Part shown: positions 1,572 to 17,738 of the stretch, one piece after another | How positions within the stretch are numbered: the first letter of the stretch is position 1 | Layout of the letters: every line of letters begins with the position of its first letter | IMG/VR virus record: IMGVR_UViG_3300028837_000489 | Coordinates: 1 to 20,593 of that record | Source of the DNA: a virus | DNA: 20,593 nucleotides | Direction: 5' to 3' (one strand) | The notes under the pieces: generated by a model | Database searches by the model: none | What the model was told of the DNA's origin: nothing | What the model saw: only the letters and a program-made list of their open reading frames with translations | Position numbers and translations under genes: made by a program

Positions 1572-2993
1572 CTATTCGTTATCTGATTCTGATTCTGTCT
1601 CAATGTTCTTTTCAATACCTTCAAGCTCTTGCAACTGTTTCTGACTCATATTCATCCAACTGCTACGAATATAGTTATGATCCACAAGACCCATTTCTAA
1701 TGCCAATTTAGCTGCATCCATGTAGTTCTTTACCGTTACGCTTTTCTCCTGCTCATCCTCCCAGCTAGGAGCAGGCCAGATTATTCTATACTCTACAGTG
1801 TTTGGAGCAATACCCCATACTACAAGCTGCAAATCAATAGTGTGTCGTATTGCCATACTCAACATTGATTGCACACGTCTGACAGTACGTGCAAAGCGAC
1901 GATCCTGTTGCTGTAATGTGGCTTTGGCATTAATGTCACGCTCAATACCAAGATGTGCTTTAGGTACTCTTAGAGATGTGATGATCTTGTTCTGATAGTA
2001 TTCAATTGCTGACAAGTTCCAAAAGCCTGTGTTACTAGTATCAAGCACTTTAACGTCTGTGAGACCTTCCTGAACTTTACCACCCCTTTCATCATATGCT
2101 TTGGCAATGTAAATATCTTTAACGACAGAGATTTGTTGTGTGCCCTTTGTATCTGTGGCAACCTGTCGTGTTTTCAATGTCTGCTTAAACTCTTCAATGG
2201 CTCTGGCGGACTCTGCTGGTCCTTTACCAGATGTATCAATGATAAAAAGCAAACGAGCGAAGGCGCGAGTTAGCCAGTTGATAACCAAAGCCTCTTCCAT
2301 AGCCTGTAGCTTTTTCCATGCAGTTCGCGCTGTATACAGCAACGATGTTCCATACTTGTTACTGCCTGTACGATTCCAGCGTATGTGTTCCATTTGCCAA
2401 GGAAAAAAGCCAGCAACATACTTCATACCACCATTGATCCACTGCTCAAACGCAAACTCCCCTTGTTTGTTACCATTCAATAACAAACCCTGCATATCTT
2501 CGTTCCGTCTGATTGTACTAGCTGGCATATCCATAAGACGCACTATATTAAACTGCTTATCGAAGACTAACTGTACAAAACAATCACCATACTTTAGCGT
2601 CTGCCTGGCAAATGAGTAAGCCTTCTCTGCCCATCTAGTAACTTTTAACATTGTGTCAATGTTGTTCGCCAAAGCTTTCGGTACATCAACATAGTACATG
2701 ACAAACGATTGACTTGCACCATGCTCCGAGTTAACAGCGTTATCAGACAAAATGTCAAGGGCTGTGGATACCTCGTCAACAGTTTCATCCATATCATCAG
2801 CGTCTCTGTACACGTTTAACCGCTTAGTAGATATGACATAGAAAAGCTTCGAGAGCATGTTTACGGTATCTTCAACTACGCCAATAGCACTTGTAGGTTG
2901 AGTTGCAGGCACAAGTGGAGTTCTGAAGAGCCTACGTATGCGTGTCATAACACGATCAATTAAACCGACTTTCATAGGTACGCCTACTGTCAT
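1572..2993 (-). CDS. Portal protein
   Basis: This 473-aa protein would form the dodecameric ring at the packaging vertex through which TerL pumps DNA. Near residue 60 it has a tyrosine/arginine-rich turn followed by DADDMDETVDEVSTALDI. This is the 'two-acidic, then E-x-S-x-A-L-D' block typical of large myophage-type (T4 gp20-like) portals, which define residues around an alternating N-terminal wing. Further support comes from FARQTLKYGDCFVQL, the VPKAHLGIERDINAKATL block, and an acidic C-terminus. The start ATG at 2993 has GGGAGG 6 bases upstream. Length and position (before the protease) fit the family. The gene is separated from TerL by the whole glycan island, which is unusual because the two are usually neighbours. 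Confidence 0.9.
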   Translation of the reverse strand: MTVGVPMKVGLIDRVMTRIRRLFRTPLVPATQPTSAIGVVEDTVNMLSKLFYVISTKRLNVYRDADDMDETVDEVSTALDILSDNAVNSEHGASQSFVMYYVDVPKALANNIDTMLKVTRWAEKAYSFARQTLKYGDCFVQLVFDKQFNIVRLMDMPASTIRRNEDMQGLLLNGNKQGEFAFEQWINGGMKYVAGFFPWQMEHIRWNRTGSNKYGTSLLYTARTAWKKLQAMEEALVINWLTRAFARLLFIIDTSGKGPAESARAIEEFKQTLKTRQVATDTKGTQQISVVKDIYIAKAYDERGGKVQEGLTDVKVLDTSNTGFWNLSAIEYYQNKIITSLRVPKAHLGIERDINAKATLQQQDRRFARTVRRVQSMLSMAIRHTIDLQLVVWGIAPNTVEYRIIWPAPSWEDEQEKSVTVKNYMDAAKLALEMGLVDHNYIRSSWMNMSQKQLQELEGIEKNIETESESDNE

Positions 2994-3008: not shown

Positions 3009-3512
3009 CTACGTTTTCAGTGGTATCAGTATTGCGTAGACGTGGCAACCATCTCTAATCTCACTCTGCATATTGCGCCAAGCACCACACAGCCCAACTG
3101 ATGCGCGTACTGCATCTAAGTTGTTATCGGTGAACCAGTTAAATGTGTACGTGCTAAAGTGTCTATAGTGTGTGGGATCATATTCATCATTCTTATGCTC
3201 CTTCCAAGGAACTATAAGATGACACTGTGCGCCCGCCCTTAGCACGCGATGGAATTCATTGATGACCCAAATAACATAGTCTATGTCTCTAGTTGGATGT
3301 CTCTGCGGCAAGTGCTCAAGGACATGATGACACCAAATCATTCCAATACTACTGTCTGGATATGGGAGTGGATCTTTCAGATCGTGCTGCCTGAAACGCC
3401 CACTCGGATATAGATGTGCAAAATCATGTTTGTCTAACCCTATCCAATTGAACTCAGGAACACGTTCCAAGTCTAAAGCATCACCACACCCAATATCAAG
3501 TGCAATTCGCAT
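3009..3512 (-). CDS. SAM-dependent methyltransferase (class I, Methyltransf_11-like)
   Basis: This 167-aa protein shows motif I (LDIGCGD, residues 5-11), an acidic residue ending strand 2 (GLDKHD, about 26-30), PLPYPDSSIGMIWCHHVLEHL (motifs around 48-68), and an 'xxEFHRVLRAG' block before a beta strand. All are typical of small Rossmann-fold methyltransferases. I place the start at ATG 3512, because GGGGAG lies 6 bases before it. The ATG at 3518 sits directly against that site with no spacing. The stop of the upstream glycosyltransferase gene is 2 bases away, so translation is probably coupled. The substrate is unknown. As the last gene of the glycan island, a sugar hydroxyl or amino group is a reasonable guess. 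Confidence 0.88.
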   Translation of the reverse strand: MRIALDIGCGDALDLERVPEFNWIGLDKHDFAHLYPSGRFRQHDLKDPLPYPDSSIGMIWCHHVLEHLPQRHPTRDIDYVIWVINEFHRVLRAGAQCHLIVPWKEHKNDEYDPTHYRHFSTYTFNWFTDNNLDAVRASVGLCGAWRNMQSEIRDGCHVYAILIPLKT

Positions 3513-3514
3513 GG

Positions 3515-4240
3515 TCATCTCCCCACATTGAACACTAACGGAACTGGAGACGGAGTGTGATAAACATGCTTACCGTGTTCCCAGTCAATCACCTTAATCA
3601 AGCTACTGAGATGTTCTCCGAATCCAAAGTTAACGACCAAATCAATGTCAGGTAGTGCCATCATGTATCCACCAGCTTGAACAGCCTCTTTGAACACTAT
3701 GTCCTCTGAGAAAGTGTGCCCAACGTTTTCTGACCAAGGGCCAAATTCATCATAGATTTCACGTCGCATACAAATGGTACTGCCAACAAAATCCTGCACC
3801 TCACAGAAGCATGGCTCCTTTGCAAAATGTTCTGCAATTAGCTTGTCAGGGAAGTTCACAGGCGGATGCCAATACTTGAACAGACCGAGACAGCCAATGT
3901 TCTCCCAGGCACGTAACAACCACATCACATGGGACAACCAACCTGGTGAGTAATCCAAGTCAGCATCGAGCTTCAGTAGAAAATCACCACGGGCAATCTG
4001 AAAGCCTCGATTGACCTGAACACCCAATCCCATGTTGTGTCCACAGTTGAAAAGTGCTGTTGACACTTTCTTCTCACGAACCAATTCATAGAGATAATCC
4101 TGCGTTTCCTGATCGCTGCTATCATCCATGACAATCAGTTCATAAGGTGCTCGTGTACACCTGAATAGAGACTCTAAACTGCGCTGTAGACTCTCCTTGC
4201 GATTGAACGATAAGACAACTAAACTTGCAAATTTATGCAT
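3515..4240 (-). CDS. GT2-type glycosyltransferase (GT-A fold)
   Basis: This 241-aa protein opens with a beta strand and SFNR (residues 5-14), the nucleotide-sugar-binding start of family 2. DDSSD (39-43) is followed by the metal-binding DAD (92-94) and a GFQIARGDFLL lead-in. A later EDIVFKEAVQAGG acidic block is the usual acceptor-side catalytic region. The start is set at ATG 4240: AAGGAGG lies 8 bases upstream, and the start shares its A with the TAA stop of the preceding gene (TAATG). A longer in-frame reading to 4276 lacks such a site and adds residues outside the fold. It would transfer a sugar to a glycan or protein, but donor and acceptor cannot be read from sequence. Confidence 0.9.
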   Translation of the reverse strand: MHKFASLVVLSFNRKESLQRSLESLFRCTRAPYELIVMDDSSDQETQDYLYELVREKKVSTALFNCGHNMGLGVQVNRGFQIARGDFLLKLDADLDYSPGWLSHVMWLLRAWENIGCLGLFKYWHPPVNFPDKLIAEHFAKEPCFCEVQDFVGSTICMRREIYDEFGPWSENVGHTFSEDIVFKEAVQAGGYMMALPDIDLVVNFGFGEHLSSLIKVIDWEHGKHVYHTPSPVPLVFNVGR

Positions 4241-4884
4241 TATGAGATCCTCCTTAGAAATCCCCCTGTAGCACACGAGATTATAAACTTCTCACGACTC
4301 TTATCCACCTCAAAGTGTAAGCCAGCATCAGTTTCCATGAAATCTTGAACTCCCAACAGCGGCCCTTCCCTTGGACACCCTGCAAGATGTAGAACATCAC
4401 ACCAGGTATCCTCCACTATGAAATAACTGCCAACCGTAACCATCGTAGAGTATTCGACAAGTTGCTGAAACACATGCCCCCTAGCATGATCCGAGTCGGC
4501 AATCACCATAACAGGAGCCCTTACACCAATTAGTCTTCTAATCAAGCTAACCACATCTAAATCAGTGTCATCACCTTGAATGAATCTAATCGGCTCTGGA
4601 AGGGGTAGACGTGGAACGTTCAAACCAACTGTTATGACCTGTCCATCCACATCCCCTACGATGCGCATAATATCTTGAAGTAATCTTGATCCACCACCTT
4701 CAGATGTCCCTAGCTCAACTATTACTTGCGGCTTAATCTCATAAATCATTTCCTGATAAATCCAAACGTCAAGAGGAAACTTTTGAGTCAAAACACCCTT
4801 CCAGGTCTTTGTGTGTGCCATGTTACAGCTGTACCAAAACATCCAGTCACGAAGACTTTTCTCTGAGAAGCTTTTCAAATCCAT
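4240..4884 (-). CDS. CmcI-family (cephalosporin hydroxylase-like) SAM methyltransferase
   Basis: This 214-aa protein carries the signature of the CmcI/rhamnosyl O-methyltransferase family (PF04989): ELGTSEGG (57-64) as SAM motif I, a GDDTD loop (104-108), DSDH (130-133) and GSYFIVEDT (152-160). Asp132 with Glu158-Asp159 reproduces the spacing of the family's metal-binding acids. Despite the family name, members are O-methyltransferases acting on sugars or small molecules, in several cases on capsular or glycolipid sugars. The start ATG 4884 follows GGTGGAG, 2 bases after the GNAT stop, and the stop overlaps the next start. It probably methylates a hydroxyl of the phage-built glycan. Family assignment is confident and the substrate is inference. 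Confidence 0.88.
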   Translation of the reverse strand: MDLKSFSEKSLRDWMFWYSCNMAHTKTWKGVLTQKFPLDVWIYQEMIYEIKPQVIVELGTSEGGGSRLLQDIMRIVGDVDGQVITVGLNVPRLPLPEPIRFIQGDDTDLDVVSLIRRLIGVRAPVMVIADSDHARGHVFQQLVEYSTMVTVGSYFIVEDTWCDVLHLAGCPREGPLLGVQDFMETDAGLHFEVDKSREKFIISCATGGFLRRIS

Positions 4885-4886
4885 AA

Positions 4887-5372
4887 CTACTCCACCCTCA
4901 CCATCACTTGTACTGGACGTGATACATCTGAACTGACATATACGGGTACTGTTCCACTCAGTTTCTCAAACCCACATTTACGATAAAGATTAATTGCCCT
5001 CTCATTATCACTATAGACAAGCAACCAAAACCATCTGACTCCAGAGATACGCCCTAGAGCAATTGCCGCCCGTAACAGCCCCTCACCCAAACCTTTACCT
5101 TGAAAATCTGAAGCAACACATATTCCCAAACATGCACCAGATAAGGTTTTGTAGCGACACATTTTTGCATAACCAAAAGGCACTCCATCACATCTGGCTA
5201 CATAATATGGAGAAGGCTTATCCTGTGCTCTCCACCACGCCTGCTGAGTATCCTTGGAAATCTCAGCCTTGTGTGCAAACAGCCAATAGTACACCTCTGG
5301 ATCGCTGCGCACCTGACGAACGAATTCCAAAGTATCATCAGTCAAAGGCTCCAGTGTAATCTCACCAATCAC
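4887..5372 (-). CDS. GNAT-family N-acetyltransferase
   Basis: This 161-aa protein has GNAT motif A (VASDFQGKGLGEGLL, about 87-100, with the Q-x-x-G-x-G acetyl-CoA pyrophosphate loop) and motif B (NERAINLYRKCGFE, 123-136). The N-terminal block of about 60 residues, with SDPEVYYWLF, resembles acyltransferases that act on nucleotide-linked amino sugars. It starts at GTG 5372 with AGGAG 9 bases before it, overlapping the end of the aminotransferase gene by 11 bases. Coming directly after a DegT aminotransferase, the obvious role is to N-acylate the amino sugar that enzyme makes, as in PseC/PseH-type or WecE/WecD-type pairs. The pairing is inferred from order. Protein acetylation remains possible. 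Confidence 0.88.
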   Translation of the reverse strand: MIGEITLEPLTDDTLEFVRQVRSDPEVYYWLFAHKAEISKDTQQAWWRAQDKPSPYYVARCDGVPFGYAKMCRYKTLSGACLGICVASDFQGKGLGEGLLRAAIALGRISGVRWFWLLVYSDNERAINLYRKCGFEKLSGTVPVYVSSDVSRPVQVMVRVE

Positions 5373-6480
5373 TGTTTATCACTCCTATAACCTTATGAAC
5401 ATCAATGTAAGATAAACCTAAATGCAATGGGAGGGAGATAATAGTCTCGCCGACAAATCGTGCATGTGGTGTATCACCACGACAACTCGCGTACAGCTGA
5501 AACTGATTGTTTGGTATATAGTGAACTCCAACTGCAATACCATTGCGTTTCAGCTTAGCAACCAAGGCGTCGCGTCGAAAGACCTGAATCCAGTAAAGGT
5601 GCTGAGCACTCCTCGTTGTCACGTCGATTTCGAACTGTGAGCATTTCCTGATTATATTAGGATGTTTAAGATGCCTGTCATATATACGTCCTAAAATGTT
5701 CCTGCAAGCATTGTCTCTGTCAAGCACTTCTAGTTGTGCCAAACCAATAGCCGCAGCGATGTCATTCATGTGATACTTGTAACCAAGTTCAGAAACGGAA
5801 TACTTCCAAGCGTAAGTGCCGACATCTTCCTCAGTGCGAGTGTAAGTGTCTTTATCTATACCCAACCATCTTAACCGTCTCAGCCGAGTGGCGGTTTCAT
5901 CTGAACCAGTCGTTATCATACCACCATCCCCAATCGGAAGATTCTTGACAGCGTGAAAACTAAAGCAGGTTAGGCCAAACGAGCCGATGCGTCTACCCTT
6001 ATAAATCGACCCCGCAGCATGAGCTGCATCTTCGATAACTTTGAGGTTGTTGTCCCTAGCTATCTCATAGATAGCATCAAGATCACATGGATACCCACCA
6101 TAATGCACACAGACGATAGCCTTGGTCTTTTTGGTTATAAGACGCTTAATGCTATCAGGGTCGATATTGCAAGTCTGTGGGTCAACATCAGCGAAAACAG
6201 GTGTTGCTCCACAGTACAAGATTGCATGATTCGTTGAGACGAAAGAGAGTGGTGTGGTTATGACCTCATCTCCTTCGCCTACACCAGAAACGATGAGAGC
6301 AAGATGCAATGCTGCCGTGCAAGAATTAAGCGCAATGGCATGTTTTGCTCCAACGTATTCAGCAAATACCTGCTCAAACTCTTGTGTCTTAGGGCCAAGG
6401 CCGATCCAACCTGACCTCAGTACCTCGGCTACGGCCTCAATAGCTTCTTCTGTAATGCAAGGCTTGAAAAGTTGTATCAT
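5362..6480 (-). CDS. DegT/DnrJ/EryC1-family sugar aminotransferase (PLP)
   Basis: This 372-aa protein is the usual length for the family. It shows the N-terminal RSGWIGLGP(K)xxEFE block, NSCTAALHLAL (52-62), EDAAHAAGSIYKGRRIGSFG (150-169) and FSFHAVKN (173-180), where Lys179 is the expected pyridoxal-phosphate Schiff-base lysine. LPIGDGGMI follows. These enzymes convert a 4-keto or 3-keto nucleotide sugar into an amino sugar. No dTDP-glucose or UDP-GlcNAc 4,6-dehydratase is visible here, so the keto-sugar would come from the host or from the SDR gene at 8115-8954. Its start shares ATGA with the stop of the CgeB-like gene and its end overlaps the GNAT gene. Confidence 0.93.
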   Translation of the reverse strand: MIQLFKPCITEEAIEAVAEVLRSGWIGLGPKTQEFEQVFAEYVGAKHAIALNSCTAALHLALIVSGVGEGDEVITTPLSFVSTNHAILYCGATPVFADVDPQTCNIDPDSIKRLITKKTKAIVCVHYGGYPCDLDAIYEIARDNNLKVIEDAAHAAGSIYKGRRIGSFGLTCFSFHAVKNLPIGDGGMITTGSDETATRLRRLRWLGIDKDTYTRTEEDVGTYAWKYSVSELGYKYHMNDIAAAIGLAQLEVLDRDNACRNILGRIYDRHLKHPNIIRKCSQFEIDVTTRSAQHLYWIQVFRRDALVAKLKRNGIAVGVHYIPNNQFQLYASCRGDTPHARFVGETIISLPLHLGLSYIDVHKVIGVINSDW

Positions 6481-7412
6481 AATTCTCTAGTCTCCCTAAT
6501 TGCCTGCTCAAAACGTGTTGAAAACGTGTGGTTCCTCTTTGCACGCATTTGTGCATTATGCCTCAGCACAACACACCTTGCTGGATCTCTCAACAGACTA
6601 TTCACCTGTGTTATAAAATCATTGGCGTTGGTAAACACTGCAATTTCATCTCTAGTAAAGTATTCCCACAGTTCAGGGACTCTACTGGAATCTACTAGCT
6701 GAGTACATCCAATCATAGCTTGCATGAAGAGACGACCATTCGGTGACGATGGACGTATTTTATGCTTGTTGGCGTGATCCATGTCATTCAAGCGATGCAG
6801 GTTCAACATGATTTTAGTACCAACAATAGCCGCTATGTATTGCTCTCCTCCATAATGCTCTTCTGTCCTTGCCCAAGGCGCGGCGTGTTTCCAACCAGAC
6901 CCAACCAGAAGGACATCAAGCTTTTTCAACTCATCAGAAACCTCTTTAATTAGTTTGACTCTACTGGGAAAGGCATTACCAACAAAGCAGACATCACTAT
7001 ATATCAATCTTTTTGGTGCAAGACTGATAGTAGACGGATAGAAGCAGGATGGAGAGTGTATGACGCGCTTTCCAAGAACCCTGCCTAGATGCTCCGCTGA
7101 GTTACGATCTGTGTCCCAAAGCAGGTCAACTTCTCTACCTGCGCGTTCGATGATGTCAATTTCGTATGGACTCTCTGACGACCACAAAATTGACACATCA
7201 CCAAGGGAACAAGCCACGTCAGTTGGAACATCACCATGCCAAGGATGATAAAAGATCACATAGTCAAAATGCCTGTGTATGACCTCTGGTAAACGAGCCG
7301 CATGAACAATTGCAACATCATACTTGGGCATCATACTCAAACCATTCATTATATTCTCAATGAAGATTGGATTGTCCCACACCACGATAAGTATACTGAT
7401 TGATGCTTTCAC
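6477..7412 (-). CDS. CgeB-type glycosyltransferase (GT-B fold)
   Basis: This 311-aa protein has the C-terminal pattern of CgeB/Glyco_trans_1_2 proteins: DVCFVGNAFPSR (140-151), a strand giving VLLVGSGW (167-174), KIMLNLHR (200-207), NGRLFMQAMIGCTQLVDS (225-242), an EYFTRDEIAVF block and a C-terminal HTFSTRF. The N-terminal half is a divergent first Rossmann domain. The family is named for Bacillus spore-coat glycosylation and is common in surface-glycan loci. The start is GTG 7412 with AGGAGGGAG upstream, sharing GTGA with the preceding stop. It is the only clear GT-B enzyme among several GT-A enzymes in this island. Donor sugar is unknown. Confidence 0.88.
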   Translation of the reverse strand: MKASISILIVVWDNPIFIENIMNGLSMMPKYDVAIVHAARLPEVIHRHFDYVIFYHPWHGDVPTDVACSLGDVSILWSSESPYEIDIIERAGREVDLLWDTDRNSAEHLGRVLGKRVIHSPSCFYPSTISLAPKRLIYSDVCFVGNAFPSRVKLIKEVSDELKKLDVLLVGSGWKHAAPWARTEEHYGGEQYIAAIVGTKIMLNLHRLNDMDHANKHKIRPSSPNGRLFMQAMIGCTQLVDSSRVPELWEYFTRDEIAVFTNANDFITQVNSLLRDPARCVVLRHNAQMRAKRNHTFSTRFEQAIRETREL

Positions 7413-8131
7413 AATAGATCTCCCTCCTCTCGTAGTCGCTTAAAAGCAACACTACGATCTATTTGCCTGCACATTGATGTGTGTGGAGAATCCTTGTACA
7501 AGCCTAACTCAACCGGAATGTGATGAAAGGCATGCCCTTGTGCTAGTATCCTGTCAAAAAATGCACCGTCTGCACAGCCCCAAAACCTTGGCTCTTCGGG
7601 CCATCCCTCCCCAAACACCTCTCTTCGATGTGCCACTTGATTATGGTCTAGCAGGCCACTTGCATTCAAATCCACTGTACCCCGAACGTGTCGGGCATTG
7701 TGCATTTCAGTTATTCTACCAGTTTTCCAATCAACCATACAAGTTCGGTGTCTGAAATAAACAGCGTAAACTTCAGGATGCTCGTCAAAGTAATCGCAGA
7801 CCACCTCAAAGCATCTAGGATAAAACTCATTGTCATCGCATAAATATAAAATTATGCCACCTTCGGTCATAGGAAATGACTTATTGATATTAACTGCGAA
7901 CCGAGTTAGTTTGGGGCGATCCTCTTCTGAAACATCAGAAGACCACCATGAGCATCGTGAGTCGCCATCAAGGAGTTCATGTAAGACAGCATGAACTCCT
8001 GGCCCAGAGTTATCATCAGCAACCACAAGCTGCCAATTCATCTCGGTTTGAACGAGAACAGAATTAATGGCAGCCCTCAACAAAGATGGACGGTTATAGG
8101 ATGTCAAAATAACACTACATCTCGGCTTCAT
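7409..8131 (-). CDS. GT2-type glycosyltransferase
   Basis: This 240-aa protein begins with SVILTSYNRP (6-15) and has ADDNS (38-42) for nucleotide binding. Where most relatives have DxD it has CDDN (98-101) at the end of a beta strand (GGIILYLCDD). A WGCADGAFFDRILAQGH block follows near residue 200, and the protein ends soon after. The start is set at ATG 8131, because GGGGAG lies 4 bases upstream and the fold begins there. The frame continues to 8284, but that extension only reads through the preceding gene and has no ribosome site. It overlaps the epimerase gene by 17 bases. Domain assignment is firm and specificity is not. Confidence 0.88.
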   Translation of the reverse strand: MKPRCSVILTSYNRPSLLRAAINSVLVQTEMNWQLVVADDNSGPGVHAVLHELLDGDSRCSWWSSDVSEEDRPKLTRFAVNINKSFPMTEGGIILYLCDDNEFYPRCFEVVCDYFDEHPEVYAVYFRHRTCMVDWKTGRITEMHNARHVRGTVDLNASGLLDHNQVAHRREVFGEGWPEEPRFWGCADGAFFDRILAQGHAFHHIPVELGLYKDSPHTSMCRQIDRSVAFKRLREEGDLL

Positions 8132-8954
8132 CTTGCTCCCCTGTCTGTGGAATAAGACGCTTGAACTCAGGGTGATAGTCAAGATACTTCTGCGCACGTG
8201 AAATATCGACCAGAGTTTCCTGACCGGATGTAAAGTTAGGCACATTGGGCCACACGCTTTGTATCCAACTTTGAATGTCAACAAATTCGGACGGCGTGGT
8301 TGGTGTGACGATGTTACACATCACATAACTCTCAACCTTCTCAGTTTCTACTGCAAGGCCAAATGCTTCCTGCAAATCATACCAAAGGATGTAAGCATAC
8401 AACCAGTCTGATTGTCTGTCATGTGCTGCGTGGAAGTATTCACTAGCGCGCGGTGTATGTGGCCAGATTCGCAAACCAATAATAACCATATCCGTAGCGG
8501 TGGCAAAGTTCTTAGCCCACTTGTCAGCAGCAATTTTAGTTTTTGTGTATACATGCAGCGTATCTTCGGGAGGAGACGGAGTATCCTCTGGCAACGGAAA
8601 ACGTCCTGGTACTAGATTCCCATGTGTTGGGCCATACACTGCATCAGAGCTTGCATATATGATCTTAGGAACTCCGGCATAAGACGCAGTTCGCAACACG
8701 GTGCGAAAACCGTCCCCATTTATACGCTCATAACCATAAGGATTAGGAGCACGACCTGGGCCACCAAGCGCGGCAAGATGAATAACAGCATCCTTGCCCT
8801 GCATCCTTTTAAACAGACTAGGTACGTCAAAAACGTTATCGCCGTCCTTATAGTCATAGATGTCAATGTCCAAACCAAAACGCCTTTTGTCAACAAGTCC
8901 AGGACGCACAATGTTGCCAATACACCCTTTACCACCAGTCATCAACACGTTCAT
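8115..8954 (-). CDS. NAD(P)-dependent sugar epimerase/dehydratase (extended SDR)
   Basis: This 279-aa protein has GGKGCIG (7-13) as the nucleotide-binding glycine loop, HLAA (59-62), SSDAVYG (102-108) as the catalytic Ser/Thr region, and Y136-x3-K140 as the catalytic pair. An RIWPH block follows where relatives have the substrate-binding R-x-x-N-x-Y/H-G-P segment. The start is set at ATG 8954: it shares ATGA with the preceding stop and has GGGAG 5 bases upstream, while the ATG 12 bases further up has its purines too close. Members convert nucleotide sugars (4-epimerase, 4,6-dehydratase, reductase). Which reaction occurs cannot be told, but supplying a sugar for the neighbouring transferases or a keto-sugar for the aminotransferase fits. 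Confidence 0.9.
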   Translation of the reverse strand: MNVLMTGGKGCIGNIVRPGLVDKRRFGLDIDIYDYKDGDNVFDVPSLFKRMQGKDAVIHLAALGGPGRAPNPYGYERINGDGFRTVLRTASYAGVPKIIYASSDAVYGPTHGNLVPGRFPLPEDTPSPPEDTLHVYTKTKIAADKWAKNFATATDMVIIGLRIWPHTPRASEYFHAAHDRQSDWLYAYILWYDLQEAFGLAVETEKVESYVMCNIVTPTTPSEFVDIQSWIQSVWPNVPNFTSGQETLVDISRAQKYLDYHPEFKRLIPQTGEQDEAEM

Positions 8955-9799
8955 GATTTCTCCCATCCCTTATAGCTTTCTGGGGGCAGCCCATCATCGA
9001 ATCTGCCCATGTGAAAGAATCGCTCAAACTTTTCCACTTCTATCTGACTCTGTTTGATAATGTAAGCTAAATTGCGCGGATGATAAAGATGTCCTCCGAT
9101 TATTCGTCTGTCGAAGCTAATACAATGTCCCGCGAAATGTGCTGCTAGACCAGATGCGCCATCTTCGACAAGACCAGCGCTTAATTCATTCCAAAAACCT
9201 CCAACATCCCAGAAGATGCCACTCGGCCAGCAGATGTTACCACTAAACGCACCAAGTAGCATTTCCTTAGAGTTGAAAACCTCTTGTGGTTGCGCGATAT
9301 TAAAGGAATCCATACGATAGTCCCTACAAATACTGTGAGTCGGTGGTAATTCGATTTTGCGCGGGGGAAGTTTCTCAGCAATGATGTCGTCAAAGCGATC
9401 AAAGACATCATTGGGCGTAACATCCATTGGTGTGAGCCAATGATAGACGCCAGCCACAATACGATTAGAATTCAGGTTCATATCCTCAACATACAGGGCC
9501 AAGGCATTCGACCGCAGAATCACGTCGCTATCAGCGAACACATAAAGATCTGAGTTAGCAAGCAAAGCGCCTTTGTTACGAGGCTGCACACCCACACCTG
9601 GGACAAACCTGGGCGTTCTAAAATAACGAATGGAAAGCTCACTGAAGCTTAAAGCCACACCTTCAGCTGCTCGCTCACCACCATCGTTAATTACTATTAC
9701 CTCGAAATCCTTGAAGGTTTGACACGTGAGGCTTGTCAAAACTAATCGCAAGTTTTCGAGTCTACCTCGTGCAACCGGAATAATCACACTCAATTTCAT
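8951..9799 (-). CDS. GT2-type glycosyltransferase
   Basis: This 282-aa protein starts with LSVIIPVARGR (3-13), then NDGGE (38-42), a GVQPRNKGALLANSDLYVFADSD lead-in to the metal-binding ADSD (89-92), and a long variable acceptor domain. A GLVEDGASGLAAHFAG segment near residue 220 holds the probable catalytic acid. GGAG lies 8 bases before ATG 9799, and the start shares ATGA with the stop of the RGP-like gene upstream. The lead-in PRNKG before the DSD resembles chondroitin-polymerase-like and galactosyl GT2 enzymes rather than dolichol-type ones. Function is likely assembly of the phage glycan. Donor and linkage are unknown. Confidence 0.88.
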   Translation of the reverse strand: MKLSVIIPVARGRLENLRLVLTSLTCQTFKDFEVIVINDGGERAAEGVALSFSELSIRYFRTPRFVPGVGVQPRNKGALLANSDLYVFADSDVILRSNALALYVEDMNLNSNRIVAGVYHWLTPMDVTPNDVFDRFDDIIAEKLPPRKIELPPTHSICRDYRMDSFNIAQPQEVFNSKEMLLGAFSGNICWPSGIFWDVGGFWNELSAGLVEDGASGLAAHFAGHCISFDRRIIGGHLYHPRNLAYIIKQSQIEVEKFERFFHMGRFDDGLPPESYKGWEKS

Positions 9800-10770
9800 T
9801 GAAACAACTCCAACCAGAGTAACATAGCTACTCTTAACTCATCCCAATATGCGTCGTGTGTAAAGGTAATCCTTCTTGCAAGCTCACCGTAACACTCAGC
9901 TATTGTGTCAGCACTCAAGATAACATTGTCAACCAAACGCCACAACTCCTCATTAACAGCAATACCAGGAGCCTCTTTGATGAGATTGTTAAACACATTA
10001 GACTTACGCATGTGCTTGACAATTGGTGCTCCAACAGAAACAGCCAAACCCAAATGGTCACAAATCTTCTTCACAAACAAACCAGCCCAAATGTCACCGA
10101 AGCGATCATAGGGATAAGAGTGCCCCATCAGTAAGAAATACATTGCAGGTGTCAACTCAGGCTTAAATGCTAGATTCATACCTGACATTGGAAAGTATCT
10201 GTTGAATGGAATGATCTGCTGCAAAGGAGCGAATTCAACAGTTGGCGCCAATCTTGGCTTCACAAGTTGGGTTGACGCATCTATATCTGGAACTTGTGAC
10301 CAAAGACCAACGTTCAAGGCAATCTCACACTCCCGTTCGACGTTGAAATATGGTACACCCCGCGTCACAAGGCCAACACCCACCTCATTCCATGCACACA
10401 TTGTACCTTTGGTCTGTAATGCCCGCCAGTGTGTGTCCAAAAATTGCTGCCCATCATCCGGCCAACAATCATCATCAAGGGTGACAATCATATCTGGCTT
10501 CGCAAGCCAAGCACGATAAAAACCAAACGAGCGAACACAATCAGTACGTCTAGGAATAATCCAAGAGCGCCCCCCAAACGCCTTGTCAATCTCAATCCAG
10601 CTAAAGTGCAAGACATTAGAATGGCCAATACTGAATGTATGTTTGGGATTGTCCTCCACTACAATTACCTGATGATCTTTGAACTCATCCTGCCACGCAT
10701 CAAGGAATAAATTGATACACTCCTCACGAATTGATGGAACTACTATAACGGCTTTATATTTCTCAGTCAC
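9796..10770 (-). CDS. Reversibly glycosylated polypeptide / UDP-arabinopyranose mutase homologue
   Basis: This 324-aa protein matches the plant RGP/UAM family (PF03214) along its whole length. Matching blocks are VIVVPSIRE (8-16), the metal-binding DDDCWP (99-104), TRGVPYF (136-142), GLWSQVPDIDASTQLVKPR (155-173), PMSGMNLAF (194-202), TPAMYFLLMG (207-216), RFGDIWAGLFVKKICDHLGL (223-242), a KSNVFNNLIKEAPGI block (256-270), and a terminal Tyr/Trp-rich helix. Arg137 lines up with the arginine that carries the covalent glucosyl group in the plant enzyme. Family members interconvert UDP-arabinopyranose and UDP-arabinofuranose. The start is GTG 10770 with AGGAGAG 7 bases upstream. A donor-making role for one of the glycosyltransferases beside it is likely. 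That it is an active mutase is inferred from conserved residues. Confidence 0.92.
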   Translation of the reverse strand: MTEKYKAVIVVPSIREECINLFLDAWQDEFKDHQVIVVEDNPKHTFSIGHSNVLHFSWIEIDKAFGGRSWIIPRRTDCVRSFGFYRAWLAKPDMIVTLDDDCWPDDGQQFLDTHWRALQTKGTMCAWNEVGVGLVTRGVPYFNVERECEIALNVGLWSQVPDIDASTQLVKPRLAPTVEFAPLQQIIPFNRYFPMSGMNLAFKPELTPAMYFLLMGHSYPYDRFGDIWAGLFVKKICDHLGLAVSVGAPIVKHMRKSNVFNNLIKEAPGIAVNEELWRLVDNVILSADTIAECYGELARRITFTHDAYWDELRVAMLLWLELFQ

Positions 10771-11638
10771 TTGGTTTCTCTCCTATCGGTAGTATTCCGA
10801 TGTCATCACCAACCTCCCACACATATAAACCAAGACTAGTCAGATCATGTTTGGATGCTATGTATCTGACATGGGCGTTACAAGATGTTTGATTAGCCAA
10901 CTGGTTTCTATCGTGATACACATGATAGCCATGAACGTAACCAGAGAAGATAGCCTTATAACCGGCTTTCTGAGCACGTATACCCATCTCACAGTCCTCA
11001 CCACCATGCCCAATAAAATTCTCATCATAACCACCAAGCGTCTCATAGACATCTCTCGGATACATCAGGAGAGCACTATACAGTGATGTGGCGTAAGATT
11101 CGCGTAGAACTGAGGACTTGAACAGACGTGCGCCATGTCTCTTGAACCTTGGATCAACGCCGACAATCCCTTTTACATCATCACACGCTTTCACAGGCAG
11201 ATTGCCAGCAATTAATTTTTTCCAATTATTATAGACATCAAATGCGCTGATTTGCATTGGCAACAGCCAGTCATATCGACCGGCAACTATGGCCGTAGGA
11301 TTTGCCTTGGAAATGTTGCTGAGATGAACAAATGCCGTTGCGTCTACAAGCATATCAGAGTCTATGAACAGAAATGACCGTCCACGTGCAATAGCACAAC
11401 CTCGATTACGTGCAAGTGCAACTCTATAACCCTCATGCGGCTGCCAGCGATATTGCAGAGCAAATCTGTTCTGAAATTCTAGCATGACATCAAGCGATCT
11501 GTCAGTAGAACCATCATCCATGACAATCAACTCAACAGGCTTGCCATAATGAACACGTGCTTTGTCTAAAGCGCACAGTGTGAGATAAAGATTCTCACGT
11601 CTGTTGTATGTTGGAATTATCACTGAAAACTCAAACAT
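10763..11638 (-). CDS. GT2-type glycosyltransferase with galactosyltransferase-like C-terminus
   Basis: This 291-aa protein has FSVIIPTYNRRENL (4-17), DDGSTD (41-46), ALARNRGCAIARG then FIDSDM (91-96), and GGEDCEM (212-218) followed by GIRAQKAGY. The GGED-x-(E/D) block is the second-half signature shared with chondroitin-polymerase-like and beta-1,4-galactosyl enzymes (Glyco_transf_7C), where the Glu-Asp pair is catalytic. The start is ATG 11638 with GGAGGGGAG just upstream. An in-frame GTG at 11653 lies before this ribosome site and would not be served by it. The gene ends 8 bases inside the RGP-like gene. It is one of the most canonical transferases of the island. Confidence 0.9.
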   Translation of the reverse strand: MFEFSVIIPTYNRRENLYLTLCALDKARVHYGKPVELIVMDDGSTDRSLDVMLEFQNRFALQYRWQPHEGYRVALARNRGCAIARGRSFLFIDSDMLVDATAFVHLSNISKANPTAIVAGRYDWLLPMQISAFDVYNNWKKLIAGNLPVKACDDVKGIVGVDPRFKRHGARLFKSSVLRESYATSLYSALLMYPRDVYETLGGYDENFIGHGGEDCEMGIRAQKAGYKAIFSGYVHGYHVYHDRNQLANQTSCNAHVRYIASKHDLTSLGLYVWEVGDDIGILPIGEKPSD

Positions 11639-11652
11639 TACTCCCCTCCGCA

Positions 11653-11952
11653 CTATGCGTGTTTACAATTAAATACAAAGGATTGTAAAGCTAGATACAT
11701 CTCGTTTGTCAGAAACCACTTACCACAACTGTGACATCGTAAAGTGGTAATCTCCACTTTACAATTTTTACCTAAGAGTGTATTAGTAAGAATCATAGTG
11801 TCTGGAAGGACATACCCACCACAGTGATGCGTGTAGTCCATACCAATACCAGGAGAACCTATTCCACTAATCCACAGTGAGTTAGCTATTGAATCGTTGT
11901 CCCGCTCACCCACGACTACCTTAGTCACGATACCCACCCCCTTTTTAATCAC
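11653..11952 (-). CDS. Unknown small Cys/His-rich protein inside the glycan island
   Basis: This 99-aa protein is not one I recognise. It has HHCGG (42-46), LRCHSCGKWF (71-80) and a final CKH (96-98), so a CxxC knuckle plus further Cys/His could bind one zinc. It resembles no sugar enzyme. The GTG at 11952 shares GTGA with the stop of the upstream glycosyltransferase, which favours that start, but it has only a weak ribosome site. A second GTG at 11928 follows a purine-rich AAAAAGGGGGTGGG run and is the main alternative, giving about 91 residues. It may be a regulatory or structural zinc protein carried along with the island. Confidence 0.65.
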   Translation of the reverse strand: MIKKGVGIVTKVVVGERDNDSIANSLWISGIGSPGIGMDYTHHCGGYVLPDTMILTNTLLGKNCKVEITTLRCHSCGKWFLTNEMYLALQSFVFNCKHA

Positions 11953-12722
11953 GTGAAAAGATGCTCGTCACTACCCATGTTACCCCAAATGCTCATCAAT
12001 CGCGCTCTATTGTTCAGACTATACTTCGCAACAACATCTTCACCTGAACCATGCTCATAATGAAGCAGTGCAGCCTTGGGTTGATATACTATCTTCCAAC
12101 CCTTCTTACGCACCTTGTAACAGAAATCAATATCTTCAAATTGCCCTATCACATAACCTTCATCAAGACCTTCAACATCATCCCATACGGTGCGGCGAAT
12201 AAGAGCACATGCGAAAGTTATAGCATTCAGCTCTCGACGAACATTAGCCACCGCAAAATCTGATGGCTCACCACCATGTATATGATATGGAAGACCTTCG
12301 CTGTTACGTGCAACACCCGCATGTTGAATCTTACCACCAAGATTGTATCCCTTTTGTGGAGGATATAACAGTTTAGCACCAACTACACCAACGTCATCAT
12401 GCTCATCCAATTCAGCAAGCATATGAGTAAGCCACATGTAACCAGGCTCAGTATCTGAGTTAAGTAGACATATGTACTTTGAGTTTGTATGTTCTACAGC
12501 CCAATTGTTGATGCCAGCAAAACCCCTACGCTTCTTAGACCTGATGATGCTGCATTTCGACTTAACTTTTCGAAGTACCACACGCATCTCATATTTAGAA
12601 CTCATATCGTCAGCAACCAACACTTTATAAGGCGCTACTGTGTTGCGCTCTACAGCAGACAAGCACATTTCCAACAAGTCTGGTGTATTGTATGTAGGTA
12701 TGATTATTGTTACGTCACACAT
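11949..12722 (-). CDS. GT2-type (rhamnosyltransferase-like) glycosyltransferase
   Basis: This 257-aa protein has VTIIIPTYNTPDLL (4-17), ADDMS (37-41), GFAGINNWAVEH then LNSDTEP (87-93), the NSDT form of the DxD motif typical of the RfbF/WsaF-like rhamnosyltransferase branch. It also has LDEGYVIGQFEDIDFCYKVRKKGW, the branch's C-terminal FEDxDxCxR-like block, with a His-rich strand after it. I use ATG 12722, where the fold begins. AAGGAG is 12 bases upstream, a rather long spacing. A GTG at 12752 is possible. It overlaps the upstream gene by 8 bases. This is the first gene of the glycan island. Rhamnose as donor is suggested by similarity only. Confidence 0.88.
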   Translation of the reverse strand: MCDVTIIIPTYNTPDLLEMCLSAVERNTVAPYKVLVADDMSSKYEMRVVLRKVKSKCSIIRSKKRRGFAGINNWAVEHTNSKYICLLNSDTEPGYMWLTHMLAELDEHDDVGVVGAKLLYPPQKGYNLGGKIQHAGVARNSEGLPYHIHGGEPSDFAVANVRRELNAITFACALIRRTVWDDVEGLDEGYVIGQFEDIDFCYKVRKKGWKIVYQPKAALLHYEHGSGEDVVAKYSLNNRARLMSIWGNMGSDEHLFT

Positions 12723-13062
12723 TGTCGTATTCCGCTCCTTGAAGAGATGCACCTAGATAACGATATGCCTCTATAATGGATGCAGCAAAAGTCTCTAGGT
12801 AATGAACAGGTGTTACATAACCAAACTCTTTGAATCGAATACACATCATCACAACATACACAAGGGTATCTGCAACCTCCTCGCGAAACATGAGTGTAAG
12901 TCTACTCATTGGTATAATCTCAAATGTTTGCTGGTCACCAATCGAGTATTGCTCATCACCCTCCCCAAGTATACGCTCCTCACACATCTCCAAGAGACCT
13001 ATGGGCATAACAAAATGCGAACAGAATTCCTTAACGGTGGTTGCCAGTTCTTCACTCGTCAC
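12715..13062 (-). CDS. Small helical protein, possibly MazG/NTP-PPase-like
   Basis: This is a 115-aa protein starting at GTG 13062, with AAAGGGGG 6 bases upstream and the preceding stop 3 bases back. The frame stays open to 13278, but that part is a shadow of the metallophosphoesterase gene. The sequence is almost all helical. Residues 58-80 contain FREEVADTLVYVVMMCIRF, close to the E-E-x-x-D-x-L-x-Y pattern that binds magnesium in all-alpha NTP pyrophosphohydrolases. The usual first E-x-x-E pair is only loosely present (CEERILGE, 27-34). Coding status is well supported by its ribosome site and tight packing. The enzyme family is a tentative reading. Confidence 0.75.
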   Translation of the reverse strand: MTSEELATTVKEFCSHFVMPIGLLEMCEERILGEGDEQYSIGDQQTFEIIPMSRLTLMFREEVADTLVYVVMMCIRFKEFGYVTPVHYLETFAASIIEAYRYLGASLQGAEYDNV

Positions 13063-13064
13063 TT

Positions 13065-13895
13065 TTATCCCCCTTTGGCTTCGAGCACTATAACGCCTGG
13101 TGGCGGAACCGCGCGCATTCGCGGTTTTACCACAATATCTTTTCCATCCCACTCTATCAACAGATAACCGATGTGTGGTAATGTGACAATACTTTTCTGG
13201 TGTGCATAAGCTGTCTTTACCTGCCATGCAGGAGCAGTCCACGCTTGAATATCCGGCGCGATAAAGACGCCAATGCAACGATGACGATGCGCTCGTACCG
13301 TTAAACGAACGTTTGGGGCCTCTTTCTTATACCAACGTCCTAGTTCAGAAAGAAGCATCAATGTGTCTCTGAGAGGCACAGTTGCCTCGTACCAAGAGAC
13401 TTTTGTAGCACCAATATGATGAGTTAGATGTATGACAGGCTCACTTCCGCCTGGGAGTCGAATGAATGCCTCCCAGAAAAGACTCTCACCAGTTGACGGG
13501 TCAATTTCTGCATCCAATGATTGAGCTAGCAGATTTGTATTCTCGGACGCTTTACCTTCATGCCAAGGTGTTCCCCTAAACATAAAGAACTGACGCGACT
13601 TTTCTCTCATTGGCTCTATTATCTTAAATGCGCCCTTACTTTGAATGTCACACCTATTTGTTACCAATTGCCCATCACGAATACTTACACCTTGAATAGC
13701 ATCACCAACAAGCGCAAGCACATCTGGCTTTAATCGTCTTACCTGATTTGTTGCATCCTTCCACCACTTTTTAAGGAACTCTTGATCCTCATTAAGCACA
13801 TACCTTCCACCACCCGCTAATCTCTGTTCTGGCTCCCATAGAGCCGCCGTACTACCCACGTGTAGATCGGCGAATACGACTGTTCTGTGAATCAT
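13065..13895 (-). CDS. Calcineurin-like metallophosphoesterase
   Basis: This 276-aa protein has the ordered metal-ligand motifs of the family: ADLHVG (9-14), VGDAIQG (63-69), FRGTPWHEG (106-114) in the place of GNHD/E, LTHHIG (157-162) and RAHRHR (201-206). The variant third motif keeps the histidine (112) but not the asparagine, a form I associate with phage-borne members. ATG 13895 has AAAGGGAG 5 bases before it and lies 11 bases after the TerL stop. Substrates of the family range from nucleic acids to phosphoproteins and cyclic nucleotides. Its position after TerL suggests a role in packaging or DNA handling, or countering a host signal. None of these can be chosen from sequence. Confidence 0.9.
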   Translation of the reverse strand: MIHRTVVFADLHVGSTAALWEPEQRLAGGGRYVLNEDQEFLKKWWKDATNQVRRLKPDVLALVGDAIQGVSIRDGQLVTNRCDIQSKGAFKIIEPMREKSRQFFMFRGTPWHEGKASENTNLLAQSLDAEIDPSTGESLFWEAFIRLPGGSEPVIHLTHHIGATKVSWYEATVPLRDTLMLLSELGRWYKKEAPNVRLTVRAHRHRCIGVFIAPDIQAWTAPAWQVKTAYAHQKSIVTLPHIGYLLIEWDGKDIVVKPRMRAVPPPGVIVLEAKGG

Positions 13896-13906: not shown

Positions 13907-15721
13907 TTAGCAGAACATCTGTGGCATAAATGCTGGCTCAGGTAAAGGTTCTTGGTCGTTTAATATACGCTGCCTGTTTATCTCTTCTCTAGCACGAGCG
14001 TCATGTTCCGCATATGGGTCAGGATCATTCATTGGCACACGACTACGTGAGTAGGTTCGCTGTCCAAAGTCATGTGGTTCAGATTGCATGATTTCTGAAC
14101 TCTTTATAGGCGCCCAGTTTTGAGCTATTGTGCGACAACCCTCTAAAGCATCTGGGCCATCATCATAAGTTCCAACGGGAAACTCAGTTAACTGCTGCTT
14201 CAGCAAATCTTGTCCGCCCTCAAGTAGTAGCAAATAACCGTTCTCCAAATCGGGTTGTAGTGATTGTATGCGCAATTCCTTGTTAGCGTGTTGATTGACT
14301 TGCATGAATGGAATGTTAGTACCAGATTCCATACTTACACGAGCGGACTCAGATGCAAAGAACGCCTGAAACTGTGTGCTTTCAATTCCCCAACGTGAGA
14401 ATATATAATCTCGCGCGAACGCATTCTGATCCATCATTATTTGTGTTGGTGGTCGCCTTTTGAGATCAGCCTCCAGAACATACATTCGCCTATCAGGTGC
14501 TTTAGCAACAATGATTATAGCGGAGTAATCAGCAGACGATGTTTTACCAAGTGACGGATCAGTGAAAGCGAATATCTTACAATCAACAAGCCGAGTAGAA
14601 GCACCCTCTTTGTTAGGAATCAACCATAACTCAGGTATACCCTCTTCGTTCTGACGATACTCCTTTCTATATGTGTACCAACGATTGAAGATACATCTTG
14701 ACGGATCACGAGGATCGTTCATCAGCTCAGTATAAAAGGATACATTACCTTCTGAGACCTTAGTAACCATAAGATCATAGTAGGAGTATCCTTCCGGCCA
14801 TGCACTCTTAGCGCCTTCTAACATCGCATCTCTGTGTTTCTCGAAGAACGTGCGTGCTGTCTCGTTTTTATGCTCGTCACTAAGATTGGTCAGCAACACA
14901 CGCCAGTCGTCCCATAGTCTTTGATTCTTAGCCCACGAAACTACAGCCTGATAAACCCTGTGCCTGAACATAGGATTTGCGACTATGCGCTTCAACATAC
15001 AATCGAAGTGTAGGAAGTTTCCTACGGCAAAGATTTTAGTGTCGCTCCAACCGGCGCGGATGACTGATTGTGTTAGCCAGGAGTAGTTGGTTTCACGCTG
15101 AGTTTTAGATTGAACGCTTTTTAGGTTCTCAGTATCATCAAGCACAATCAAGTCGGGCCTAAACCAGAGGTACTTACGACCCCTTACCTTCATACCAGAA
15201 CCTAACGCCTCTATGCGAACCATATTAGCGAGCTCGATCTCTGAGCGCTGCCAGACGCGACCCTTCATGTCACCGAAATCTTCACGTATGCGCTCATTGT
15301 TCTCGATTTCACTCTGCAAGTTGGCAAGCTGTTGCTTCGCCTGGTCATGTGAGTCTGATATAATTAAGATAAAGCGTCTCTTTTTCAACAGGCTACACCA
15401 AAGTGGTAATGCTAGTGTGATGGTAGTTGTCTTGCCGAAACCACGAGGCCATATAACTGCACTATAGATTTTCCCCTTAGTGCTCATTACATCTTCTATC
15501 TCAAGCACGATCTCATGGTGCATACTGCCAAAGGGCAGGTAGAAGTGATGGCCGAGATAGAACTTCATAAAGAACTCAAAGTCAACCTCAGACAGCGCGA
15601 GACGAATCAACTTGCTGTCAAGTGGCTCATCTATAAGACCCGTCGCTTCAAGCTGCGCAACTGTGAAGTTACGCATAAGTGCAGCGCGGATTAATGAGAG
15701 ATCATCAGAGGTTAGTTCCAT
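13907..15721 (-). CDS. terL: Terminase large subunit (ATPase and nuclease)
   Basis: This 604-aa protein shows the packaging ATPase domain with Walker A WPRGFGKTT (91-99) and Walker B LIVLDDTE (191-198, catalytic Glu198). The C-terminal RNase H-like nuclease follows, with FTDPSLG (386-392), DYSAI (398-402) and DDGPDALE (520-527) supplying the metal-binding acids. TerL cuts the concatemer and pumps DNA through the portal. Length is normal. The start ATG 15721 follows TAG of the 50-aa peptide by one base, with GGGAT 5 bases upstream, a weak ribosome site that suggests coupling to the peptide gene. Both catalytic centres appear intact. Confidence 0.95.
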   Translation of the reverse strand: MELTSDDLSLIRAALMRNFTVAQLEATGLIDEPLDSKLIRLALSEVDFEFFMKFYLGHHFYLPFGSMHHEIVLEIEDVMSTKGKIYSAVIWPRGFGKTTTITLALPLWCSLLKKRRFILIISDSHDQAKQQLANLQSEIENNERIREDFGDMKGRVWQRSEIELANMVRIEALGSGMKVRGRKYLWFRPDLIVLDDTENLKSVQSKTQRETNYSWLTQSVIRAGWSDTKIFAVGNFLHFDCMLKRIVANPMFRHRVYQAVVSWAKNQRLWDDWRVLLTNLSDEHKNETARTFFEKHRDAMLEGAKSAWPEGYSYYDLMVTKVSEGNVSFYTELMNDPRDPSRCIFNRWYTYRKEYRQNEEGIPELWLIPNKEGASTRLVDCKIFAFTDPSLGKTSSADYSAIIIVAKAPDRRMYVLEADLKRRPPTQIMMDQNAFARDYIFSRWGIESTQFQAFFASESARVSMESGTNIPFMQVNQHANKELRIQSLQPDLENGYLLLLEGGQDLLKQQLTEFPVGTYDDGPDALEGCRTIAQNWAPIKSSEIMQSEPHDFGQRTYSRSRVPMNDPDPYAEHDARAREEINRQRILNDQEPLPEPAFMPQMFC

Positions 15722-15722
15722 A

Positions 15723-15875
15723 CTATCCCACAGTCACAATGTAGAACACAAAGGCTACCATCACTAACAGAAATACAGCGAACAGCATTGGGCCTTTACT
15801 GACCTCTTCCATATTCCTCAAATCATCCTCATCTGATCTGTGCTCTCCAATTCCATTATATATATCAACGCTCAT
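15723..15875 (-). CDS. 50-aa single-span membrane peptide between radical SAM and TerL genes
   Basis: ATG 15875 shares ATGA with the stop of the radical SAM gene, has AAGGAG 7 bases upstream, and opens 50 codons ending in TAG one base before the TerL start. Residues 1-28 are acidic and polar (EHRSDEDDL in the middle). Residues 29-48 are a continuous hydrophobic segment (MLFAVFLLVMVAFVFYIVTV), with only two residues after it. This predicts an anchored peptide with its acidic head on one side of the membrane. Strong ribosome site, 4-base overlap and exact filling of the gap make it very likely real. Function is unknown. Its arrangement suggests its translation feeds ribosomes into terL. Confidence 0.8.
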   Translation of the reverse strand: MSVDIYNGIGEHRSDEDDLRNMEEVSKGPMLFAVFLLVMVAFVFYIVTVG

Positions 15876-17062: not shown

Positions 17063-17738
17063 TTATATTCTCCTCGGTAATATCAATTGCTACAGCGTCT
17101 ATTACATCTGGCATGTCCGATCTCTGCTGCTTTTTCGCTGGTATGATCTCTAATAGTGCGCGTATAGTTGGGATCTCACTAGGGGGTGTTCCTACTGGTA
17201 ACAAGTCTTGTACGGGCGTTGTGTCAACAGTAAAGAAGCCGAGACCCTTCTGAATGGTCACATACTGTTTGAGCAAATCCCAATACTCATGAAATTGCTG
17301 GTCAACGATGCCCAATAATGGGCGTGTAACACTTTCAATGAATAACGCTGTGTCCAAACGCTCTGCTTTCAGTTTAAGCAATCTAGCAAGTTCACCAATA
17401 GCATCAACTTCAATGTCAATCTCTCTGAACTTGCTCTGGAGATAAGTAATCGGCAAGAAGTCAGTCTCATCTAACTGCTCTCGATACTCTTTGATAGCAT
17501 CAACGGGAATGCTAACACCAGCAGTCCGTATCAAGTATGTATGTGTGCGCGCAGGCGACCAGTTATTGATGAGACAATTGAAGATGGTTTGTTTATGCTC
17601 ACTGTTTTCGATGGTTAGTACATTCGTCTGTGGTGCAGAAGATCCACCACGACGCTCCAAAGCAGCTAGAAACTCTTTATACTGCTCGGCTATCCTTTCG
17701 GGTAGCGCCAGCACATTATCCCCTTTAACCTTTGGCAT
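17055..17738 (-). CDS. Probable small-terminase-like or DNA-binding protein, first gene of the late unit
   Basis: This 227-aa protein is not one I can match by motif to a named family. Residues 49-90 read like a helix-turn-helix used for target selection (TIFNCLINNWSPARTHTYL then VSIPVDAIKEYREQL), with the rhythm of resolvase-like or small-terminase N-termini. Residues 105-170 are helical and would suit oligomerisation. The C-terminus is Pro/acidic. ATG 17738 has GAGAGGGG 7 bases upstream and lies about 24 bases after a predicted transcription start. Being the first gene before TerL (two genes further on), TerS is the natural candidate. That label is from position and a loose fold reading. 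Confidence 0.7.
   Translation of the reverse strand: MPKVKGDNVLALPERIAEQYKEFLAALERRGGSSAPQTNVLTIENSEHKQTIFNCLINNWSPARTHTYLIRTAGVSIPVDAIKEYREQLDETDFLPITYLQSKFREIDIEVDAIGELARLLKLKAERLDTALFIESVTRPLLGIVDQQFHEYWDLLKQYVTIQKGLGFFTVDTTPVQDLLPVGTPPSEIPTIRALLEIIPAKKQQRSDMPDVIDAVAIDITEENINE

Follow-up and report, generated by a model that had tools for sequence, protein, structure and literature searches.

A GT75 (RGP) family protein encoded in an exchangeable sugar-gene block between the terminase and portal genes of a phage

The stretch of viral DNA analysed here (the window; record IMGVR_UViG_3300028837_000489) is a 20.6-kb fragment of 20,593 nucleotides. Between its genes for the large terminase and a T4-like portal lies a glycan cassette (Table 1). 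From the terminase inward, the order is a phosphoesterase-like gene, a small gene, a GT2 glycosyltransferase gene, a second small gene, another GT2 and the gene of a reversibly glycosylated polypeptide (RGP), followed by genes for a GT2, a short-chain dehydrogenase/reductase-like protein (SDR), a GT2, a GT1-like protein, an aminotransferase, an acetyltransferase, an O-methyltransferase-like protein, a GT2 and a methyltransferase, and then the portal. The RGP gene overlaps both of its GT2 neighbours; the one overlapping its start has chondroitin synthase as nearest solved protein, and comparison with solved structures named neither of the two as a furanosyltransferase. The GT2 downstream of the SDR probably has its true start near 8131, close to the SDR stop. 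We rejected a cellular origin for the window, since terminase and portal flank the cassette and these flanks recur in two related viral contigs (L002 and L081); compared with phage records, terminase and portal had best matches of less than 40% identity, too distant to point to a host. The placement of the gene in a phage head operon, as proposed in the original prediction, holds.

Table 1. Genes of the cassette and its borders, with amino-acid identities in the two related viral contigs
Feature	Coordinates	Strand	Supporting match	L002	L081
Large terminase, cassette border	13907..15721	-	phrog_38 E 1.7e-93	82%	75%
GT2, core in all three related phages	11949..12752	-	PF00535 E 1.7e-20	67%	77%
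GT2 with Glyco_transf_7C part	10763..11653	-	PF10111/PF00535; 8-base overlap with RGP start	62%	64%
GT75/RGP NDP-pyranose mutase homologue P0001 (predicted)	9796..10770	-	PF03214 E 1.2e-42	74%	
GT2, candidate furanose-donor user	8951..9799	-	PF00535 E 1.7e-11; 4-base overlap with RGP stop	78%, order kept	generic GT2 similarity only
NAD-dependent sugar epimerase/dehydratase-like SDR, travels with RGP	8115..8966	-	PF01370 E 2e-15	83%	no match
GT2, travels with RGP	7409..8284	-	PF00535 E 4.6e-17	84%	46-residue weak match only
GT1-like glycosyltransferase, travels with RGP	6477..7412	-	PF13524 E 9e-21	83%	no match
DegT-type sugar aminotransferase, ArnB/PseC-like	5362..6480	-	PF01041 E 9e-114; PseC 339 bits, under cut-off 423.5; ArnB 6.8e-74		
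GNAT N-acetyltransferase (RimI/PseH-like)	4887..5372	-	PF00583; RimI, PseH models below cut-off		
Rhamnosyl O-methyltransferase/CmcI-like protein	4240..4884	-	PF04989 E 1.6e-33		
GT2, cassette core	3515..4276	-	PF00535 E 8.6e-20	87%	55%
Class I methyltransferase	3009..3518	-	PF08241 E 5.7e-7		
T4-like portal, cassette border	1572..2993	-	PF07230 E 4.1e-34	71%	80%

Two further genes lie near the terminase. The phosphoesterase-like gene adjoining it (13065-13895, minus strand), metallophosphoesterase-like judging by its sequence, matched no Pfam or PHROG family and is kept in L002 (48%) and L081 (76%). A B12-binding radical SAM gene (15872-17062, minus strand) is situated between a probable small terminase (17055-17738) and the large terminase, and is absent from the equivalent place in L002 and L081.

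The open reading frame of the RGP gene was confirmed in the ORF list of the window exactly where it had been predicted, on the minus strand (the prediction gave none); it starts with GTG and encodes a protein of 324 amino acids, P0001. The sole Pfam family on P0001 is PF03214 (RGP; 146.7 bits versus a cut-off of 23.8), its match covering residues 9-323, or profile positions 8-337 of 342, with an E value that makes chance an untenable explanation. No PHROGs or NCBIfam model matched P0001. All the motifs quoted in the original prediction were found, at 99-102 (DDDC), 161-173 (PDIDASTQLVKPR, the TQLVKPR block), 198-202 (MNLAF), 208-216 (PAMYFLLMG) and 234-240 (KKICDHL). The nearest solved proteins by sequence are MtdL, a GT75 enzyme of Marinactinospora thermotolerans (PDB 7xpr, 7xpt and 7yua; E 3.8e-24), and then PDB 8cid (E 3.8e-18), a UDP-arabinopyranose mutase whose title names Oryza sativa UAM 2. 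Weak sequence similarity to chain E3 of PDB 8iuf (NDUEG3; E 2.5e-4) was seen as well.

An AlphaFold model of P0001 built with 55 related sequences (mean pLDDT 94.2; pTM 0.93) superposed on MtdL with a Z of 34.1 (rmsd 2.6; 300 residues) and on rice UAM2, the plant comparison, with 32.9, whereas the next fold family reached only 16.1. This gap sets P0001 apart as GT75 rather than a general GT-A enzyme. P0001 is thus a full-length GT75/RGP member, modelled with a GT-A fold whose core and C-terminal helices are those particular to the family, and the label 'NDP-pyranose mutase', predicted by family and naming no particular sugar, is supported. Between P0001 and the RGP of L002, dN is 0.17 at a dS of about 3 (saturated), so the gene is under purifying selection.

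In MtdL, Mn2+ is held by Asp111 and His287, with Arg159 as proposed nucleophile and Asp260 as proposed base, and activity is lost in mutants of Asp87, Asp109, Asp195, Arg159, Gln229, Arg257 and Asp260 (PMC9937993). When residue numbers were transferred through pairwise sequence alignments, MtdL Asp109-111, Arg159, Asp195, Arg257, Asp260 and His287 corresponded to P0001 Asp99-101, Arg137, Asp162, Arg223, Asp226 and His253, all unchanged in 38 of the 38 viral rows analysed, and MtdL Asp87 to Asp77. The sole activity-loss position that is changed is Gln229, which is Met198 in P0001 and Met in plants and phages alike. Arg137, along with the DDD at 99-101, was present as predicted and aligned with the arginine conserved in rice UAM2 and in Arabidopsis AtRGP1 (presumed sequence), in agreement with its proposed identity as the arginine that is glycosylated in plants. 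Rice UAM2, which is reported to be inactive (PMC9937993), lacks the third Asp, the phosphate Arg and the metal His. Overall, P0001 shares with MtdL the full-length fold, the main catalytic and metal residues and the sugar-contact Asp, at 28% identity; MtdL acts on GDP-sugars in an antibiotic pathway, whereas P0001 is encoded in a phage cassette. Flavin-dependent UDP-galactopyranose mutase catalyses the same kind of reaction but with FAD, while GT75 works with a divalent cation instead (PMC9937993).

The cassette was compared with those of the two related contigs. In the sister L002 the gene order is kept, without the aminotransferase, the acetyltransferase and both methyltransferases. In L081 the terminase, the phosphoesterase, three GT2 genes (11949, 10763 and 3515) and the portal are kept (55-80%), whereas the RGP, the SDR and the GT1-like gene are absent and the GT2 genes at 8951 and 7409 have no clear counterparts; that is, the block of RGP, GT2, SDR, GT2 and GT1 is gone jointly while flanks and core glycosyltransferases remain. 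The joint absence marks the RGP as part of an exchangeable block, and the gene probably belongs to a swappable sugar-gene set building a phage-made glycan. Between the same flanking genes, L081 (14358-20544) harbours in its place a different glycan block with genes for a GT2, a methyltransferase, a GT, an ATP-grasp-like protein, an SDR and an aminotransferase, several of them named by sequence alone. The ArnB/PseC-like aminotransferase and the GNAT of the window suggest an N-acylated amino sugar; as partners of the RGP they were rejected, both being absent from L002. Among the phage RGP loci compared, the cassette of the window is common to L002 only.

The original prediction had called the protein 'plant-like', which stands for the family motifs and Pro12 but not for kinship. 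The plant row is a sequence that we take to be that of AtRGP1; its score of 594.8 bits on PF03214, the only check made on it, indicates that it is usable. P0001 is 52-57% identical to Planctomycetota and Chloroflexota homologues (L049-L053; 57% to a Planctomycetota one), versus 35% over 334 columns to the presumed AtRGP1 sequence. In the tree, made without the distant short homologues L041-L047, P0001 and L002 fall among Planctomycetota/Chloroflexota proteins (inner support weak, 98/45), with L049-L053 as the nearest rows after L002, and plant rows (AtRGP1 as presumed) lie outside all bacterial and viral rows. The L049-L053 proteins, from cellular MAGs and none of them characterised, carry the same Thr-Asp pair at the sugar site as P0001. 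Plant RGP/UAM (presumed AtRGP1 sequence, OsUAM1 as published) shares with P0001 the DDDC, LVKP, GMNLAF, PAMYF-LMG and ICDHL motifs, the catalytic Arg and Pro at position 13, but differs in its Asp-Ser sugar site and its separate branch.

Viral and bacterial rows are intermixed, with nine virus-label changes by parsimony, at least two of which are forced by well-supported branches; several transfers are thus likely. Cellular GT75 is sparse: in the phylum of L050 (Planctomycetota) only 5 of 147 genomes have it, and in the phylum of L067 (Acidimicrobiales) only 2 of 296 do. The commonest neighbour families of bacterial homologues are GT2/GT1, plus epimerases, O-antigen ligase and ABC-2 transport, which fits surface-polysaccharide loci. 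Nor is an RGP in a phage a rarity: one viral scan alone returned 45 viral contigs with RGP, and GT75 has already been mentioned as a soil-phage gene (PMC12016548). A literature search that used the names RGP and UAM for phages found nothing; in BFVD, a phage fragment (A0A6J5N5Z7) is already named RGP. The window gene therefore adds one member to a family known and fairly common in phages (IMG/VR loci L005-L047, the LR756511 megaphage, the BFVD entry and the soil phages). The phage members are spread over several branches and over differing contexts, DNA replication among them, and several of the genes adjoin GT2, sulfotransferase, methyltransferase or epimerase genes.

Several individual records in the survey were distinctive. 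The distant viral RGPs L041-L047, five of them short (238-274 amino acids), retain the catalytic Arg and, for the most part, the DDD motif. One Paceibacterota contig (L059) harbours a pair of divergent RGP genes separated by about 3 kb (3422-4441, plus strand; 7270-8316, minus strand). Sulfotransferase-like genes adjoin phage RGPs at L006:2547-3347 and L003:14366-14995 (the latter by sequence only), which suggests sulfated glycans in these phages.

The replication context is that of one clade (L015, L027-L031 and L040) plus L026, where RGP neighbours include DNA polymerase III alpha (seven scanned proteins), DNA polymerase A, primase, helicase, deaminase and kinase-like genes; for other phage RGPs the neighbour tally is led by GT2, methyltransferase and sulfotransferase genes. 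A gene of thymidylate-synthase fold was found in 7 of the 7 replication-module records tested versus 0 of 16 others of about 100 kb or less (Fisher P value of 4e-6; the records are related, with an effective number of perhaps two lineages), and two much larger RGP records outside this group carry one too. In L026 and L027 its best solved relative is CMP 5-hydroxymethylase (2e-16 and 6e-32, respectively), which outranks the thymidylate synthases. GT2 genes are missing in seven of eight replication-module records and present in 15 of 20 others (Fisher P value of 0.004, likewise for related records with an effective number of perhaps two lineages). The RGP and a cytosine-5-hydroxymethylase-like gene, in records with no GT2, occur together at L026:6149-8951, L027:2549-9071 and L031:1745-9053. 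Read from gene content, this clade suggests a sugar on a hydroxymethylated base, possibly furanosylated. RB69 DNA carries arabinosyl-hmC, and the study that discovered it did not settle how the phage obtains UDP-arabinose (PMC6024577). That phages repeatedly adopted GT75 for two ends, head-region furanose glycans and a furanosylated cytosine-type DNA base, is offered as a tentative idea, with the balance leaning against it. For the window itself, a furanose donor that modifies phage DNA bases appears very improbable: the separate replication-module clade gives it a precedent, but here the RGP is situated among six glycosyltransferase genes in the head region, and a thymidylate-synthase-fold gene was seen neither in the window nor in the 59-kb L002 record (each may be incomplete).

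The identity of the sugar turns on the donor site. In MtdL, Thr13, Asn42 and Ser86 were tested as base-selecting and Asp87 contacts the sugar, its replacement by Ser, the plant residue, abolishing activity (PMC9937993). Plants have Pro at MtdL position 13 and Asp-Ser at 86-87; P0001 combines the plant-like Pro12 with Thr76-Asp77, which is near the MtdL Ser-Asp and unlike the plant pair. Compared with a GDP-sugar mutase of MtdL/Hyg20 type, Asp77 agrees, Thr76 is similar to Ser and Pro12 differs, Gly197 and Met198 taking the place of MtdL Ser228 and Gln229. These positions are thus a mixture of the states of the GDP-sugar enzyme MtdL and the UDP-sugar plant enzymes, so that UDP-arabinose is not the default reading of the donor. 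The plant-type Asp-Ser pair occurs in other phages, for example the 595-kb LR756511; Asp at position 77 is tightly clustered on the tree, and with only three changes among 63 rows it largely marks a subfamily. That P0001 is a UDP-L-arabinopyranose mutase as in plants, providing L-arabinofuranose for a phage glycan, is consistent with Pro12, Gly197 and Met198, which agree with the plant enzyme and not with MtdL, and with the characterised members being mostly plant enzymes, some with mutase activity on UDP-arabinopyranose (PMC9937993). Thr76-Asp77 in place of the plant pair, the loss of MtdL activity upon Asp87 to Ser and the clustering of the Asp77 state make it rather doubtful, as does the cassette, where a search for the UDP-arabinose pathway recognised no gene and where the SDR matched no solved structure at E 1e-6 and scores below every NCBIfam cut-off. 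Of the product originally predicted, a ring-contracted donor for a virus glycan accords with the cassette context, while UDP-arabinofuranose is not supported.

Whether the ring is contracted at all was considered as well. P0001 has a GT-A transferase fold, plant members self-glycosylate on arginine and some of them lack mutase activity (PMC9937993), so it could be a plain or self-glycosylating transferase (a primer or carrier) that has lost ring contraction; the metal His and phosphate Arg that are lost in the inactive plant class are, however, all present, and this alternative is unlikely. As for the destination of the glycan, location in the head region does not by itself prove a virion acceptor, and the host surface could receive it, as in O-antigen conversion. 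Two GT2 neighbours weakly match GtrB-like phage proteins and the bacterial relatives reside in neighbourhoods resembling surface-polysaccharide loci, yet in each of the three related phages the cassette lies within the terminase-to-portal block, and no flippase or polymerase was recognised in it. These last two features fit virion assembly better, without being decisive, and leave a host-surface glycan rather unlikely. Mycobacteriophage glycosyltransferases are reported to glycosylate virion proteins of both capsid and tail tube (PMC12363180), so by analogy a virion protein would be a reasonable acceptor.

The reading that we consider probable is that P0001 acts as a metal-dependent GT75 NDP-pyranose mutase feeding furanose to a phage cassette glycan, most likely on a virion protein. 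The family, the fold, the intact catalytic set, the gene overlaps and the co-inheritance of the block among the three phages are established; the mutase activity, the sugar and the acceptor are what we infer from them. By analogy with the mechanism proposed for MtdL (PMC9937993), Asp226 would deprotonate Arg137. This arginine would then attack the NDP-sugar, positioned by Mn2+ at Asp101 and His253, on its anomeric carbon; the arginine-linked sugar would open, reclose as a furanose and leave as NDP-furanose. The adjoining phage glycosyltransferases might then transfer the furanose to the glycan made by the terminase-to-portal cassette, its acceptor being most likely a virion protein.

Because a mutase dedicated to the task is required for making a furanose donor, a phage with such a gene is investing part of its genome in an unusual sugar. 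Comparison of the cassettes yields a concrete list of co-travelling genes that is open to assay. Furthermore, the survey reveals GT75 to be widespread in phages and split by residue type and genome context, a split that opens both the question of donor specificity and that of a possible furanosyl-DNA modification to direct tests.
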